In this document: in pieces, positions 45,786 through 52,007 of the stretch
How positions within the stretch are numbered: the stretch's first letter is position 1
How the letters are laid out: every line of letters begins with the position of its first letter
Assembly: GCA_016871575.1 (NCBI GenBank)
Contig: VHCW01000015.1
Span: 1-64,000, forward strand
Direction: 5' to 3'
Source: Verrucomicrobiota bacterium
Lineage (GTDB): Bacteria; Verrucomicrobiota; Verrucomicrobiia; Palsa-1439
DNA length: 64,000 nt
Program-made: the position numbers and the translations under genes
The notes under the pieces: model-generated
Database searches by the model: none
Seen by the model: only the letters and a program-made list of their open reading frames with translations
Told to the model about the DNA's origin: nothing

Positions 45786-45980
45786 ATGAGCACGCAGGAG
45801 ATGATCGAGAAGGAGTTGCAGGAGTTGCCAGAGGCAATGCGGCGCGAGGTGTACGACTTTGCCCGTTTTTTGCGGCTCAAGAAGGAAGAGGACGCCTTCG
45901 ATGGGTTGCTCCTGAGCGAGTCCGCGCTCCGCAAAGAGTGGAACACTCCAGAGGAAGACGCAGCATGGGCAAATCTGTGA
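45786..45980 (+). CDS. Antitoxin, DUF2281-like
   Basis: The protein has 64 residues: TQEMIEKELQELPEAMRREV followed by DFARFLRLKKEEDAF and a C-terminal EEDAAWANL. This matches small DUF2281-type antitoxins found before MazF/PemK toxins. An AAGGA lies a few bases before the ATG. Its last 16 bases overlap the toxin gene, the usual arrangement. The pair lies between two versions of a mutase gene end. Confidence 0.8.
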   Translation: MSTQEMIEKELQELPEAMRREVYDFARFLRLKKEEDAFDGLLLSESALRKEWNTPEEDAAWANL

Positions 45981-46294
45981 CCGGCGAGGTTGTGGTCTTG
46001 CCCTTCCCGCAAACCAACCTGCAAGTGGGCAAACGTCGCCCTGCGCTCGTTGTTGCGAACCTGCCCGGCGCGGATTTGATTCTCTGCCAGATCACCAGCC
46101 AAGGCCGCGACGATGGATTCTCGATACCGCTGACTGCCGCCGATTTCGCGCGTGGTCAGTTGAGCGTGAACAGCTTTGCGCGGGCGAACCGTCTCTTCAC
46201 CGTCGAGCAATCCGTGATTCTTTACGTGGCGGGAAAGATCAACGATACCAAGCTCCAGACCGTTCGCGCCAAGATTCGCGAACTGTTTGCCTGA
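45965..46294 (+). CDS. Toxin of the PemK/MazF endoribonuclease family
   Basis: The protein has 109 residues. GEVVVLPFPQTNLQVGKRRP and ALVVANLPGADLILCQITSQ are the N-terminal blocks of the PemK/MazF fold, with a later SVNSFARANRLFTVEQS. Such toxins cut mRNA and are held in check by the adjacent antitoxin. The ATG at 45965 overlaps the antitoxin; an upstream start at 45938 would extend the overlap and is less likely. The stop is directly followed, in the same frame, by the duplicated mutase tail. Confidence 0.85.
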   Translation: MGKSVTGEVVVLPFPQTNLQVGKRRPALVVANLPGADLILCQITSQGRDDGFSIPLTAADFARGQLSVNSFARANRLFTVEQSVILYVAGKINDTKLQTVRAKIRELFA

Positions 46295-46384: not shown

Positions 46385-46883
46385 CTACTCTATCTTCCGT
46401 TTCCTGTCTGCTGGCGCATAGATGTAGAATGCTTTGCCGGCAATCGCGCTTCGTTTGATTGCGCCCCAGAATCGTCCATCGAAACTGCTGCGGCTGTTGT
46501 CGCCAAGCACAAAGCAGTGCTTCTCGGGCACCTGATACTCATCCGCCGGTGTCCCCAAGTAACATGGCGGCGGCAACGACCCCGGCGTCACATAACCAGT
46601 GTAGCCATCCTTGCAAGAGGAAATCCGTCGAAAGCAGACAGGGTTATCCAACATCTTCCCGTTGACGATGACGTGCGGCGGTTTGATGCTAACTGTACGG
46701 AGTCCTCGGATGAAGACAAATGCAGTGAAGCGCTATTTCCAAGACTACATATGAGACAAACCAGAGCAATCCAGCCACTCTGCGTCCTGACAGGAACTGC
46801 GCACTTCCCGTCAGGAACCCAGACGGAATCAGATTGACCCATCTGCGGTAATGATTGCCGCTCTCAGTGTGAACCAGTTTCAC
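46385..46883 (-). pseudogene. lepB: Decayed signal peptidase I gene
   Basis: Reading from the GTG at 46883, an N-terminal part gives RRWVNLIPSGFLTGSAQFLS and a membrane segment, then a stop after a frame change near 46690-46740. In another frame the sequence continues IRGLRTVSIKPPHVIVNGKM and GDNSRSSFDGRFWGAIKRS, the C-terminal signature of signal peptidase I. The catalytic serine block (SMxPT) and lysine region between these parts are missing. A deletion plus frameshift is inferred. Confidence 0.7.
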
Positions 46884-46960
46884 TGTTGCGCTTATGGAGC
46901 CGGTCCCCGTCCATTACAAGGCGATAATGTTGGTTGGCCGGAACAAAGCCGTCGCATGAA

Positions 46961-47647
46961 TCAAGCGTCGTAGCGGTAGCCGACGCCGTGGATGGTTGTA
47001 ATAATCGCGGGCTTGTGCGGATGGCGTTCAATTCGTTTGCGGAGTTGGGCGATGTGTTGGTCGAGGGTGCGACTGTTGGGGATGTGTTCGAGTCCCCAGC
47101 AATGGTTGAAGAACGCATTCCGATCAACCGCTTTCCCCCGGTTGTCGTGGAGCAGTTTCAGGATCTTGACATCGCGCAGGCTGAGGTCAATCACGTCGCG
47201 TCCGCGACGGGCGCGGAGTTCGTCGGGGAAAATTTCCAGATCGCGGAGTTTGAAGGGAGTGCTGCTGTGTGCGGGGCGTTGTGATGCAAGACAGCGACGG
47301 GTGACGGCCCGGATACGGGCGACGACTTCTTTGACGCCAAACGGTTTGACGATGTAATCGTCGGCGCCGAGTTCAAGGCCGAGGATTTTGTCAATCTCCT
47401 CGGACTTGGCGCTGAGGAAAATGATCGGGACGGTTGGATTCTGCCGGCGAATTTCGAGACAGACATCGTAACCGTTGACACCGGGCATCATGATGTCGAG
47501 GCAAATGAAGTCAGGCTGGTCGCGGCGGAACACCGCGATAGCTTCACGCCCGTTGCTGGCGAGAATGGGTTGGTAGCCTTCGGCTTCGAGGATTTCGGCG
47601 AGGCCGTTGCGGGTGTTGATATCGTCTTCGGCAATGAGGACTTTCAT
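46961..47647 (-). CDS. Response regulator, OmpR/PhoB family
   Basis: The protein has 228 residues. The receiver domain has acidic residues 7-9 (AEDD), the phosphorylation site Asp51 (ICLDIMMPG), then LSAKSEEID and the KPF lysine. The C-terminal winged helix (residues ~130-228) ends in TTIHGVGYRYDA, diagnostic of the OmpR/PhoB group. It overlaps the kinase gene stop as ATGA and so forms a two-component pair with it. The four direct repeats upstream of the operon (50515-50553) are plausible binding sites for this regulator. Confidence 0.92.
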   Translation of the reverse strand: MKVLIAEDDINTRNGLAEILEAEGYQPILASNGREAIAVFRRDQPDFICLDIMMPGVNGYDVCLEIRRQNPTVPIIFLSAKSEEIDKILGLELGADDYIVKPFGVKEVVARIRAVTRRCLASQRPAHSSTPFKLRDLEIFPDELRARRGRDVIDLSLRDVKILKLLHDNRGKAVDRNAFFNHCWGLEHIPNSRTLDQHIAQLRKRIERHPHKPAIITTIHGVGYRYDA

Positions 47648-49125
47648 GATGGCAAGCGGAGTTGAAAGGCGGCACCCGTTGTTGATGGCAACAGGGTGAG
47701 ATCACCGCCATGTTGGCGGGCGAGGTCGCGGGCGATGGTCAGGCCGATGCCCGTGCCGGTCACCCCGTCGGTGAGTTTGTTGCTGAGGCGATGGAACGGT
47801 TTGAAAATGTTCTCGCGCTGGTCGGCGGGGATGCCGGGGCCGCGGTCGGTGACGGTGATGAGCGTGGTGTTGGCGGATTGTTCGGTGGTGATTTCCGCGT
47901 GTTTGCCGTCGGCGGCGTATTTTTCGATGTTGCCGAGGAGGTTGCCGATGATCTGTTCGAGGGCGTCGGCATCGAAGCTGATGGGAGCGGACGCGTTGCC
48001 GGTGAAATGGACCTCGATTCCCTTCGCGGCAAGCGCCGGGTTGAAATCTTCAATGACGGAACGAATCACACCATCCACAGCGCCGGTTGTCTTGTGGAGC
48101 TTGTGCGGGCGGGCGAATCGGAGAATGTTGGCGATCAGGCGGCTGAGCCGCTGGCTTTCGGCGACAATGACGCGCACGTGCCGGTTGGGTTCGGGCAGTG
48201 AGTCTTCAAGGAGTTCGGCGTACATGCGGATGTTGGTCAGCGGCGTTTTCAACTCATGCGAGACTTGGTTGACGAAACTCACGCGCTGGGCCGCGTCACG
48301 GAGTTCGCGGGTGCTTTCGCGATAGAAATAAACAGCCAGTCCGGTCAGTGCCAGCCCGACGGCGATAAGCCCCGTCACCAACGTCCAGATGATGCGACGG
48401 CCGAATCTTGTTTCTGGAGCGTAGTAGTTCAGGCGCCACGTGTTGAGGGGAGCGGGCAACGTAAACGAGGTCAGCGGCGACTCGGACGGGGAAGGGGGGT
48501 AATCACCCCATTGGTAGAGGATGCTGCCGGTCGCCTCCGTCAACGCGGTGCGTCCTTTCACCGTGCTCCGTTCCGGCAGGACTGCCACGATATCGGCCAT
48601 CAACCGCACGCGATCCACTTCCGCGCCGAGAATGTGTCCTGTGCCGTCGCATCGCCAGTAGATGAGATTGAATCCGTTGTCCGAAAACCAGGCGTGCCAG
48701 CCGTGGTTGCTCGCGCCTTCGCCCGTCCGGTAAAACATTTGCTGTTCCTTCCAGACCTGCCCTGCGCGCTCCAGAAATTCTTGCTCCGACGGCGTGACCG
48801 GACCGGCGGGCGGTGGATGAAGGCGGCGTCCCTTGGGGTCTAAGACGAAGACATGCCGCAGCAACGGGTGGCTGCGCGCCAACTCGCGCAGACGCGAGGT
48901 TTCGAAGTCCGTGAACTCCAATGCCCGTTGGAGGGCGCGTTCGTGTTCTGCCATCGCGCGCTGAATCGTGCCGCCACTATCACGCAGTTGCTCCGCGCGA
49001 AGTTCATGGAGCCGTTGCCGCATCATCGTCTGCTCATCGCGGGCCATGCGCAGCCCCAGACCGCCGAGCAGCGCCAACGGCACAGTCACGATGAGCAGAT
49101 AGACGATGATGAGTTTCGGTTTCAA
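47644..49125 (-). CDS. Sensor histidine kinase
   Basis: The protein has 493 residues. Membrane helices at about 5-25 and 250-275 enclose a ~225-residue periplasmic sensor region with no recognised domain. The H-box is FVNQVSHELKTPL with His290; the N-box is NLLGNIEKYA, followed by DRGPGIP and GTGIGLTIARDLA. The start appears to be a TTG at 49125 directly after the stop of the VWA gene (TGATTG), since no ATG precedes the first helix. It should phosphorylate the downstream regulator. Confidence 0.9.
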   Translation of the reverse strand: MKPKLIIVYLLIVTVPLALLGGLGLRMARDEQTMMRQRLHELRAEQLRDSGGTIQRAMAEHERALQRALEFTDFETSRLRELARSHPLLRHVFVLDPKGRRLHPPPAGPVTPSEQEFLERAGQVWKEQQMFYRTGEGASNHGWHAWFSDNGFNLIYWRCDGTGHILGAEVDRVRLMADIVAVLPERSTVKGRTALTEATGSILYQWGDYPPSPSESPLTSFTLPAPLNTWRLNYYAPETRFGRRIIWTLVTGLIAVGLALTGLAVYFYRESTRELRDAAQRVSFVNQVSHELKTPLTNIRMYAELLEDSLPEPNRHVRVIVAESQRLSRLIANILRFARPHKLHKTTGAVDGVIRSVIEDFNPALAAKGIEVHFTGNASAPISFDADALEQIIGNLLGNIEKYAADGKHAEITTEQSANTTLITVTDRGPGIPADQRENIFKPFHRLSNKLTDGVTGTGIGLTIARDLARQHGGDLTLLPSTTGAAFQLRLPS

Positions 49126-50463
49126 TCAGTAGGGGGCTGCCTGTTGGTAGGAGCGGGAGCGTTGATCATACCGCATTTCTTTACGCATCATGTTCCACGT
49201 TTCATTGCTAAGCGACTGGGATTGGAGGCGATTCGCGTCACCATACTGCTGCAAGTCGGGAGCGTTATACTTCGTGGCATTCGCGCCCAAATAGCCGCTA
49301 TTAAGCAACAACACCCCGCGCGCTTCCTCGATTTTTCCGGCGTCACGCAGAGCGGTTGCCCTTTGGTTGTTTTCGACGGCGATCATCTCAACTGCCGAGA
49401 TCATAACATAGCGGTTCTCGTTCGCGTCCACCTCACGCGACGAATTCGTGAATCGCGCGGATGCGGTGCAGCGGATCCGGTCGGCTCGGTGCGTGGCCAT
49501 GTTGGCGTAGGTGACTTCCGTGGCTGCGATTTCGCGCTGGCGGCCAGCGCCGGTTGACGGAACTTCAACCTCGATCAGTACAAACTTCTCCTTGTCGGCG
49601 TAAAGCTGGTTGAGGCCAACGGTCACGATTTGCCCAGTGATGTCGCCCTCGCGTCCAAGAATCCGGACAGGGCGGACTCCATCGGCGCAACGCACGCGCA
49701 CGACCACCTCCTGCGCGACCACCGAGAGGACATCGCCAAACTCCGTGTTGTAGATGCGGGCGAGGTCTTGGACGTGCTCGACGAACCAGTGATTGCCGTC
49801 GCTCTTGCTGGCCAGCTTGGTCATGAGGTCTTCGTTGAAACCGTCGCCAAGGCCGATGGTGGTGACGGCGATGCCTTCCTTGATGAGGGACGAACCGAGT
49901 TCGCCGAGGTCGCTGGGCGAACTGGGGCCGACATTGGCGATGCCGTCGGAGAGCAGAATAACGCGGTTCGTGCGTTGACGGTCGAGGAACTTGCGGACTT
50001 CCGCCGCGCCCTTGCTGACGCCGGCGAACAAGGCGGTCGAACCGCCGCTTTGCAACCGGGCGATGGCTGCGTGAATGCCGGCGCGGTCGGACACCTTTGT
50101 CGCGGGAACGAGCACTTGGACTTGGTCATCGTAGGCGACAACCGAAACGATGTCGTCGGAGTTGAGGCGGTCAATGGCGAGGATGGCAGCCTCCTTGGCC
50201 TTGCGGAGTTTTTCACCCGACATCGAGCCGGACCGGTCGAGGACGATGGCGACGTTGACCGGCGTGCGTTTCTCCATTTGGGAGGTGCTGAAGCCGGTCA
50301 AGCTGACCTTGAGGTACGTGGTCTGCTTGGCATCGGCCAAGAGGACCGGACGTCCCAGCGCGGCGCTGACTTTGATTTGTTGGGCGCCGAACGACGGCGC
50401 CGCCCCGGCGGCCAGTGCGGCAACGCCGGCGAGGACGACTGCGAGCTGTAGTTTATGGTTCAT
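49126..50463 (-). CDS. Exported von Willebrand factor A domain protein
   Basis: The protein has 445 residues with a signal peptide ending near SFGAQQ. The VWA domain has a full MIDAS motif, DRSGSMSG at residues 76-83, with IVLDR before it and ILLSDGIANVG later. The C-terminal part has no recognised domain and ends in a Gln/Tyr/Ser-rich tail. VWA domains bind metal-dependently to other proteins. A good Shine-Dalgarno (AAAGGAT) precedes the ATG. It is the first gene of an operon with a histidine kinase and regulator. Confidence 0.88.
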   Translation of the reverse strand: MNHKLQLAVVLAGVAALAAGAAPSFGAQQIKVSAALGRPVLLADAKQTTYLKVSLTGFSTSQMEKRTPVNVAIVLDRSGSMSGEKLRKAKEAAILAIDRLNSDDIVSVVAYDDQVQVLVPATKVSDRAGIHAAIARLQSGGSTALFAGVSKGAAEVRKFLDRQRTNRVILLSDGIANVGPSSPSDLGELGSSLIKEGIAVTTIGLGDGFNEDLMTKLASKSDGNHWFVEHVQDLARIYNTEFGDVLSVVAQEVVVRVRCADGVRPVRILGREGDITGQIVTVGLNQLYADKEKFVLIEVEVPSTGAGRQREIAATEVTYANMATHRADRIRCTASARFTNSSREVDANENRYVMISAVEMIAVENNQRATALRDAGKIEEARGVLLLNSGYLGANATKYNAPDLQQYGDANRLQSQSLSNETWNMMRKEMRYDQRSRSYQQAAPY

Positions 50464-50498
50464 AACGATATCCTTTCTGTTCAGCTCCAGTTGACATC

Positions 50499-50553
50499 AT
50501 TTTACAGGAGAAGTGGTCAGAATGCTGTAAGTAGTTTGTAAAACAATTGTCAG
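50499..50553 (-). promoter_or_regulatory. Regulated promoter with four direct repeats in 11-bp phase
   Basis: Reading on the minus strand, CTGACA, TTTACA, CTTACA and CTGACC start 11 bases apart, at 50548-50553, 50537-50542, 50526-50531 and 50515-50520. The last repeat ends 10 bases before a TAAAAT -10 box (50499-50504). There is no separate -35 box. This spacing is that of promoters activated by PhoB-type regulators, whose binding site replaces the -35 region. It drives the VWA-kinase-regulator operon. Confidence 0.7.
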
Positions 50554-50567
50554 CCAGCGGAGTATCG

Positions 50568-51695
50568 TCAGGACAGGGTGTTGCTGCGCTCTTCCGTTTT
50601 GATCCCCTGTCCCTGTACGAATGCTTCCAACATGCGAAGCATCTTCTCGCGGTCAAAAGGCCAACGGCAGAGATCGTGTGCCTCTTTCAGCAACGCCGCT
50701 TCCGATCTGCGAACCCGTCCATCAATCACCACTGCGACGGCAAGGACGCTCAGGAAGACCTGTCGTTCAATCTCCGTAAGGTCCGCTGCGCTGGCGCGGG
50801 CAGTTGTCCAGTTGCCAGCAACTTCGTCGGGCGCGATTTCCAGCGATTCCAGCAAGTGGCGCAACAGCAGATGATAATTCGGGTCGGCGTCGCCCGTGCG
50901 CACCATCGCCTCGCTGACGGCATGGACGATCAGGTGCCGGCAGGGGGGACTGAGTTGTCCGCGCATCGCGCTGACGTGCTGGCAAAGATCGCGGATCGCA
51001 AGCGGGCCGAAGGCGCGGACACGCGCTTGACGCAACACCCACCGGGTGACGACTGCGTTCCAAACGGCATAGACAGGAATCGCCACCAAGGGGATCAATG
51101 CCCGCATTGCCGCGCGCGCCAACAACCGGCGGAGCAGCAGCCGCAGGATGAAACTGGTCGCGCCCACCTTCAGCTTGTAGCCGAGCGCCAGCAACGCCAG
51201 TTTCCAGCGCGGCGTGCGCGCATAGGGATCCACCCAGTAAATCCGTTCGCGCGGGTTTGGCAGTTCCAACGCCGCCCGCACCAATGCGCGCGCGACGTGC
51301 TCCCCGGTTTCATGACCCGCCAATGGCACGCCGGCGAACGCGCTGGTTCCACCCACGCCACGGATGGCGTTCCAGTACAGAAAAAGAATTTCCAGCATGC
51401 TGACCACCACGACCAATCCCAGATACAGCAACCACACCTGCCAATGCTCACGCCAGTAGGCGAATTCGAAACTTCCCAGCCGTCCGCCGGAGATCACCTC
51501 CGCGCCGCCCAGAATCGCTCCCGATGCGACTCCGGCAAAGGCAGCCCGCCACAGCGTCCGGTTTTCCAGACGCCGCAACCCGTGCAATTCGCCGCAATCC
51601 AGCGGATGAACTGCCCAGGCGCCGCATCGGTTCCAACGCCGCAGTTGGTCCAGTCCGTAGCGCTCCAGCAGATTCAATTGTCGTTTCTCAGTCAA
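50568..51695 (-). CDS. Membrane protein with TerB-like C-terminal part (LBF_2804-like?)
   Basis: The protein has 375 residues. LLERYGLDQLRRWNRCG is an amphipathic start; membrane helices lie at about 50-70, 85-110 and 170-215. The C-terminal ~110 residues are soluble and helical, with EIERQVFLSVLAVAVVIDGR and DGRVRRSEAALLKEAHDLC resembling the TerB-like acidic repeat. I associate the N-terminal part with the LBF_2804 family but am not sure. It lies just upstream of the VWA operon on the same strand, with its own unit of 104 intergenic bases between. Confidence 0.55.
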   Translation of the reverse strand: MTEKRQLNLLERYGLDQLRRWNRCGAWAVHPLDCGELHGLRRLENRTLWRAAFAGVASGAILGGAEVISGGRLGSFEFAYWREHWQVWLLYLGLVVVVSMLEILFLYWNAIRGVGGTSAFAGVPLAGHETGEHVARALVRAALELPNPRERIYWVDPYARTPRWKLALLALGYKLKVGATSFILRLLLRRLLARAAMRALIPLVAIPVYAVWNAVVTRWVLRQARVRAFGPLAIRDLCQHVSAMRGQLSPPCRHLIVHAVSEAMVRTGDADPNYHLLLRHLLESLEIAPDEVAGNWTTARASAADLTEIERQVFLSVLAVAVVIDGRVRRSEAALLKEAHDLCRWPFDREKMLRMLEAFVQGQGIKTEERSNTLS

Positions 51696-51769
51696 GGGTG
51701 TGCGAAATCATGATGTAAAATCACGGAAAGGGCAACGCCGAAACGATGCGCGAAATGACCGTTCCTTGC

Positions 51770-51799
51770 TTGTCCGAAGGTTCGCGGATTGTGTAGGAT
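51770..51799 (+). promoter_or_regulatory. Candidate promoter of the small DUF2238-like gene, leaderless geometry
   Basis: TTGTCC and TAGGAT are separated by 18 bases, with 7 bases between the -10 box and the ATG at 51807. Confidence 0.45.
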
Positions 51800-51806
51800 G
51801 TGCGCC

Positions 51807-52007
51807 ATGGAGAAAAACCAACAGAGTCGCCTGCCGATTGTTCAGTGGCGCTACGCCGTCCACGCCGACCCCGCGGCCGGCATCGCCGTTCTCGGCAGCC
51901 AAGGCGACTCATGGGATGCCCAGAAAGACATGCTGGCCGACACGCTTGGTGCCATCTGTGCCACGCTCCTGCATGTCGCCTCTCATCGCGGAGGGCGGCA
52001 ACCATGA
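51807..52007 (+). CDS. Small protein resembling the end of DUF2238 (YjdF-like) proteins
   Basis: The protein has 66 residues. The stretch AGIAVLGSQGDSWDAQKDML and ADTLGAICATLL resemble the C-terminal GDxWDxQxDM block of DUF2238 membrane proteins, but the membrane helices that normally precede it are missing. It may be a truncated remnant that is still transcribed, or an independent small protein. Its stop overlaps the M48 protease start as ATGA. Confidence 0.5.
   Translation: MEKNQQSRLPIVQWRYAVHADPAAGIAVLGSQGDSWDAQKDMLADTLGAICATLLHVASHRGGRQP

Follow-up and report, generated by a model that had tools for sequence, protein, structure and literature searches.

A conserved array of four 11-bp-phased repeats as the likely operator of a VWA-kinase-regulator operon in Verrucomicrobiota

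RESULTS

The window (the whole 64,000-nt stretch of DNA analysed) contains an array of four direct repeats in exact 11-bp phase, located upstream of an operon that encodes a VWA-domain protein, a sensor histidine kinase, and an OmpR/PhoB-family response regulator. Its conservation shows that the array is not a chance occurrence, and by its layout it is a real, strongly conserved operator. We consider it probable that the operon's own regulator uses the array as its operator, and that two tandem dimers would bind there and activate the promoter (positive autoregulation). This kind of operator is already known; its conservation is unusually good in this case.

A four-repeat array in exact 11-bp phase

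The array comprises, on the minus strand, repeat 1 (CTGACA, 50548–50553), repeat 2 (TTTACA, 50537–50542, 11 bp from repeat 1), repeat 3 (CTTACA, 50526–50531), and repeat 4 (CTGACC, 50515–50520). Direct reading of the positions confirmed the four hexamers, their strand, and the exact 11-bp phase reported in an earlier note on this DNA. A 104-bp gap holds the array; it runs from the stop codon of a gene of the LBF_2804 family to the VWA start codon (ATG, 50463). The product of this upstream neighbour (50571–51695, minus strand) scores 341 bits against the family cut-off of 80.

Scored as four NT[GT]ACA units with a maximum of 20 matches, the window array has 19 matches. In the rest of the 64-kb window, on both strands, the best period-11 four-unit score is 14 (the array's own overlapping register excepted), and no score of 15 or more is obtained at periods 9, 10, 12, or 13. 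When the upstream region was shuffled 4000 times (first order), no shuffle reached the array score. In a whole-genome pattern search allowing up to two mismatches, the array site was the sole match, and a pattern search of the genome allowing one mismatch with unit 3 left free found no second copy. The genome search for the same phased repeats that had been suggested as a check thus returned only this array.

The operon encodes an exported VWA protein and a two-component pair

The first gene of the operon (49126–50463, minus strand) encodes an exported VWA-domain protein of 445 aa (Pfam VWA, E = 2.4e-20) with an intact MIDAS motif (DRSGSMSG). A structure model of the protein has an ArnB/Sec23-24-like core (archaeal ArnB, Sec23/24), and the protein could be a partner of the kinase or an output. 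The kinase gene (47644–49125, minus strand) encodes a 493-aa sensor histidine kinase with HisKA and HATPase_c domains and a predicted extracytoplasmic sensor domain; a fold search, which returned mainly kinase cores, gave no assignment for this domain. The regulator gene (46961–47647, minus strand) encodes a 228-aa OmpR/PhoB-family response regulator that has, as had been claimed for this operon, a receiver domain (Pfam Response_reg, 1.2e-29) and a winged-helix domain of the Trans_reg_C family (Pfam, 3.3e-19).

The TTG start codon of the kinase gene directly follows the VWA stop codon (junction TGATTG), and the start codon of the regulator gene overlaps the kinase stop codon (ATGA). Because the junctions abut or overlap, the three genes are very probably co-transcribed. 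Close to the operon end, a short ORF (46385–46654, minus strand) looks by eye like a signal peptidase I fragment from the C-terminal end. A 118-aa ORF (45938–46294, plus strand) has, by eye, a PemK/MazF-type resemblance. No paper describing a VWA-kinase-regulator module was found in the literature searched, with most subscription journals outside the coverage, and the two-component module is apparently undescribed.

The array and its phase are conserved in Verrucomicrobiota

By profile search, 33 of the 286 class genomes and 39 of the 289 phylum genomes contain orthologues. Conservation of the array upstream of orthologous operons was the check on which the reading in the earlier note could have failed, and the reading withstood it: the array is present in all of the first 12 orthologues, and 48 of 56 Verrucomicrobiota orthologues score at least 17/20 at period 11. 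At the other periods (7–10 and 12–16), none of the 56 reaches 17/20, a comparison that serves as the control since choosing the best placement inflates scores equally at every period. The 11-bp phase is itself conserved, as the earlier note had anticipated for a binding site, with period 11 alone among periods 7–16 giving scores of at least 17 in orthologues. The upstream regions of 18 other VWA genes contain no array, with a top score of 14.

Individual units differ in their conservation. In repeat 1, the T-[GT]-A-C-A columns are kept in 51 orthologues; repeat 2 is defined by the sequence together with the orthologue alignment; repeat 3 shows the weakest conservation of the four units among relatives; and repeat 4 has a TGAC core in all 51 aligned Verrucomicrobiota promoters, its CTGACC form being found also in cross-phylum relatives. 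The G of unit 4 is present in 51 of 51 Verrucomicrobiota promoters. The scoring gave G no preference over T at this position, so its conservation constitutes independent evidence.

The array occurs across phyla together with a kinase-regulator pair

A scan of GTDB genomes yielded 80 further loci, largely independent of the first set (a few overlap it), from Planctomycetota, Myxococcota, Pseudomonadota, Hydrogenedentota, Riflebacteria, Spirochaetota, and others, many of these genomes being MAGs with possibly unreliable names. The array scores at least 15 at period 11 in 56 of the 80 loci, compared with 0–2 loci at periods 9, 10, 12, and 13, and array-positive loci occur in Planctomycetota, Myxococcota, Pseudomonadota, Riflebacteria, and others.

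Among cross-phylum loci with enough flanking DNA, a kinase gene and a regulator gene are adjacent downstream in 44 of 47 array-positive loci versus 6 of 20 array-negative loci (Fisher p = 1.9e-7, calculated on loci that are not independent samples). In Verrucomicrobiota alone, almost all orthologues have both features, so the comparison has no power (p = 1); as a point against autoregulation, 7 of the 48 array-bearing Verrucomicrobiota orthologues have no kinase-regulator pair detected within reach, although distant copies are possible. In a tree of the VWA protein, the loci that lack both the array and the pair fall into separate groups, one of six Planctomycetota, one of four that are mostly Thiotrichaceae, and some single lineages. 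From the co-occurrence with the kinase-regulator pair, we infer that the array is under the control of the operon's own regulator, in line with the autoregulation proposed from the single sequence, and autoregulation of the VWA-kinase-regulator operon is likely.

In the same tree, the window VWA protein (49126–50463) clusters with proteins of other phyla, apart from most Verrucomicrobiota copies. The mixed-phylum group that contains the window protein and one relative (G006) has an SH-aLRT support of 100, which suggests that horizontal spread is likely.

The conserved −10 position is 20 bp downstream of the array

The earlier note had assigned the −10 element to TAAAAT (50499–50504, minus strand), ten bases after repeat 4. 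This candidate is not kept as a −10 element in relatives. We aligned two largely independent sets of orthologues on the array, with identical arrays removed beforehand, and in both sets the conserved −10 element is located 20 bp past the last unit, where the array-anchored alignment has a sharp TANAAT-like peak. The mean match to TATAAT at 20 bp is 3.31 in the Verrucomicrobiota set and 3.57 in the other set, compared with 1.69 and 1.26, respectively, at 10 bp. The final T (position 6) of the 20-bp box is present in 48 of 51 Verrucomicrobiota orthologues and in 50 of 53 orthologues of the other set, and in Verrucomicrobiota members a TG precedes the box by one base, the arrangement of an extended −10 element. 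In eight Verrucomicrobiota relatives (L008, L009, L010, and five others), an ATG lies exactly 6 nt past the 20-bp box. This spacing suggests leaderless VWA transcripts in those relatives and, being the spacing that leaderless transcripts would be expected to have, supports the 20-bp position. One locus (L247) has both TCCTGTAAAAT and, at 20 bp, TTAAAT, which favours the 20-bp box. The promoter call made from the single sequence is corrected by these alignments and was probably off by about one helical turn.

In the window, the comparative alignment predicts TCAACT (50489–50494, minus strand), 20 bp after repeat 4, as the −10 element. TCAACT is a weak match (3/6) and TAAAAT a good one, and the window's own start site may still follow TAAAAT. 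No sigma-70 −35/−10 pair was found in 46700–51900, in agreement with the earlier observation that the promoter has no −35 element, and no Rfam element is present in the leader.

DISCUSSION

A model for activation by the operon's own regulator

OmpR/PhoB-family regulators, including PhoB, bind 11-nt direct repeats head to tail (PMC4415409), and the conserved, approximately 11-bp direct repeats near the promoter support the assignment of the array, by layout, as an OmpR/PhoB-type operator. Array conservation, the fixed 20-bp distance to the −10 element, the co-occurrence with the kinase-regulator pair, and the uniqueness of the array in the genome are the basis of the autoregulation model, in which the inferred parts are regulator binding in a 2+2 stoichiometry, the positive sign of the control, and the signal. 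In the model, the kinase would sense an extracytoplasmic signal, and the phosphorylated regulator would bind as two head-to-tail dimers to the four half-sites on one face of the helix. The bound dimers would span about −71 to −33 and would take the place of the missing −35 element, so that the weak promoter with the predicted −10 element TCAACT (50494–50489) would be activated, and the VWA-kinase-regulator operon would raise its own transcription.

The operon's regulator might instead bind the array as a repressor that occludes the promoter (negative autoregulation); repeat 4 would be located at about −38 to −33, and protein bound there could block RNA polymerase. We regard repression as unlikely: the lack of a recognisable −35 element, the mostly degenerate −10 element, and the fixed spacing suit activation, and PhoB sites that overlap the −35 region activate (PMC3348028).

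Relation to PhoB and the phosphate regulon

A different reading is that the array is a Pho box bound by the cell's PhoB, which would place the operon in the phosphate-starvation regulon. The layout at E. coli pstS is the same in several respects: the Pho boxes there (CTGTCATAAAA and further repeats) form four 11-bp direct repeats, one of which is CTTACA, with no −35 element and with a regulator of the OmpR/PhoB type. The two sites differ in the core of the unit, which is TGTCA in E. coli and T[GT]ACA in the array, with no match of the array consensus to the unit CTGTCAT. They differ also in the distance from the last unit to the −10 element, which is 11 bp in E. coli pstS and a conserved 20 bp in the array operons, that is, about one turn further and on nearly the same face.

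The operon regulator scores 174 bits, below the PhoB equivalog cut-off of 296.2 bits (TIGR02154), a cut-off that is not decisive in this phylum, where the genome's best PhoB candidate, with 243.7 bits, misses it too. That better, separately encoded candidate (G000:C1:23793) has a classical recognition helix, DTRTVDTHVRRLREKL. The recognition helix of the operon regulator is SRTLDQHIAQLRK, also written SRTLDQHIAQLRKR, in which D and Q never vary across the 92 members of the family that could be aligned. Phased repeats of a related kind do precede the pst genes of these genomes. In 16 pstS-like upstream regions from the same genomes, the best sense-strand array score is 16/20 and none reaches 17. 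Several pstS upstream regions (L192, L186, and others) carry phased 11-bp repeats that read roughly GT[AC]ACA rather than T[GT]ACA, and these repeats are probably the Pho box of the phylum. No pst gene was found among the identified genes behind exact-pattern matches in the class, where part of the matches were identified. Together with the finding that, in many phyla, the array accompanies a kinase and regulator of its own, these differences make the Pho-box reading quite improbable, and membership of the operon in the Pho regulon was rejected on the scores of the pstS upstream regions and the separate PhoB candidate. The description "PhoB-like" in the earlier note accordingly holds for the layout and fails for the unit sequence and for the identity of the regulator, as far as the missed cut-off and the separate candidate indicate.

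Relation to other phased operators

Three other systems resemble the VWA-kinase-regulator operon in part. The operator of M. tuberculosis PhoP, built of 7-bp direct repeats with a 4-bp spacer, shares the 11-bp phase, and PhoP binds tri- and tetra-repeat arrays with higher affinity, four-repeat DNA more tightly than two-repeat DNA (PMC4832192); the operator differs in its motif (TCACAGC), its regulon, and its basic site of two units. CreBC/BlrAB is likewise a two-component system with 11-bp-phased TNAC-like repeats (the cre tag, TTCACN6TTCAC) before an associated gene (PMC4689548), but has two TTCAC units and a target, CreD, that is an inner-membrane protein; the operon regulator scores 158.3 bits against a CreB cut-off of 273, and the array units are TGAC or TTAC, not TTCAC. 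The proteobacterial dedicated sortase system combines an NCBIfam target (TIGR03788) and a dedicated response regulator (TIGR03787) of related types; the module studied here misses both cut-offs by far, with 117.4 of 335.7 bits for TIGR03787 and 56.8 of 551.65 bits for TIGR03788.

Additional array copies and targets

Scanned against the 286 class genomes, the exact pattern had about 49 matches, versus 3 for the reversed pattern, all 3 in one genome. Some genomes have extra array copies before other genes, so the site does not serve autoregulation exclusively. An exact four-unit array lies 62–76 bp upstream of DUF4139 genes in two genomes that belong to different families (L084:3539–4981 and L086:3136–4908), and VWA_4 genes follow the array in two genomes (L092 and L095). 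DUF4139 was rejected as a second target in the window's genome, from which the gene is absent. Another locus (L046, G198:C10:120842–120922) has GTGACATAACC units head to tail in an exact 11-bp tandem. Other exact-pattern matches, for example before a TrwC relaxase gene, may be due to chance. The extra copies would also fit a further regulator, encoded elsewhere and coincidentally co-inherited with the module, a reading that is very hard to credit because it requires co-inheritance across many phyla and because the array and the kinase-regulator pair are absent together.

Significance

The array provides a specific, testable operator and promoter for a two-component module that is spread over many phyla and is present also in named Pseudomonadota strains (Marinobacterium, Amphritea, and Neptunomonas), in which it could be tested. 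More tentatively, the promoter-operator and the VWA-kinase-regulator module might move between phyla as a self-contained, autoregulated sensing cassette, with the VWA protein within the circuit and with DUF4139 and VWA_4 genes recruited in some lineages. That regulatory DNA keeps a single phase and a single promoter spacing from phylum to phylum is unusual, and offers a clean case in which to study how the recognition helix of an OmpR/PhoB-type regulator remains matched to its DNA.
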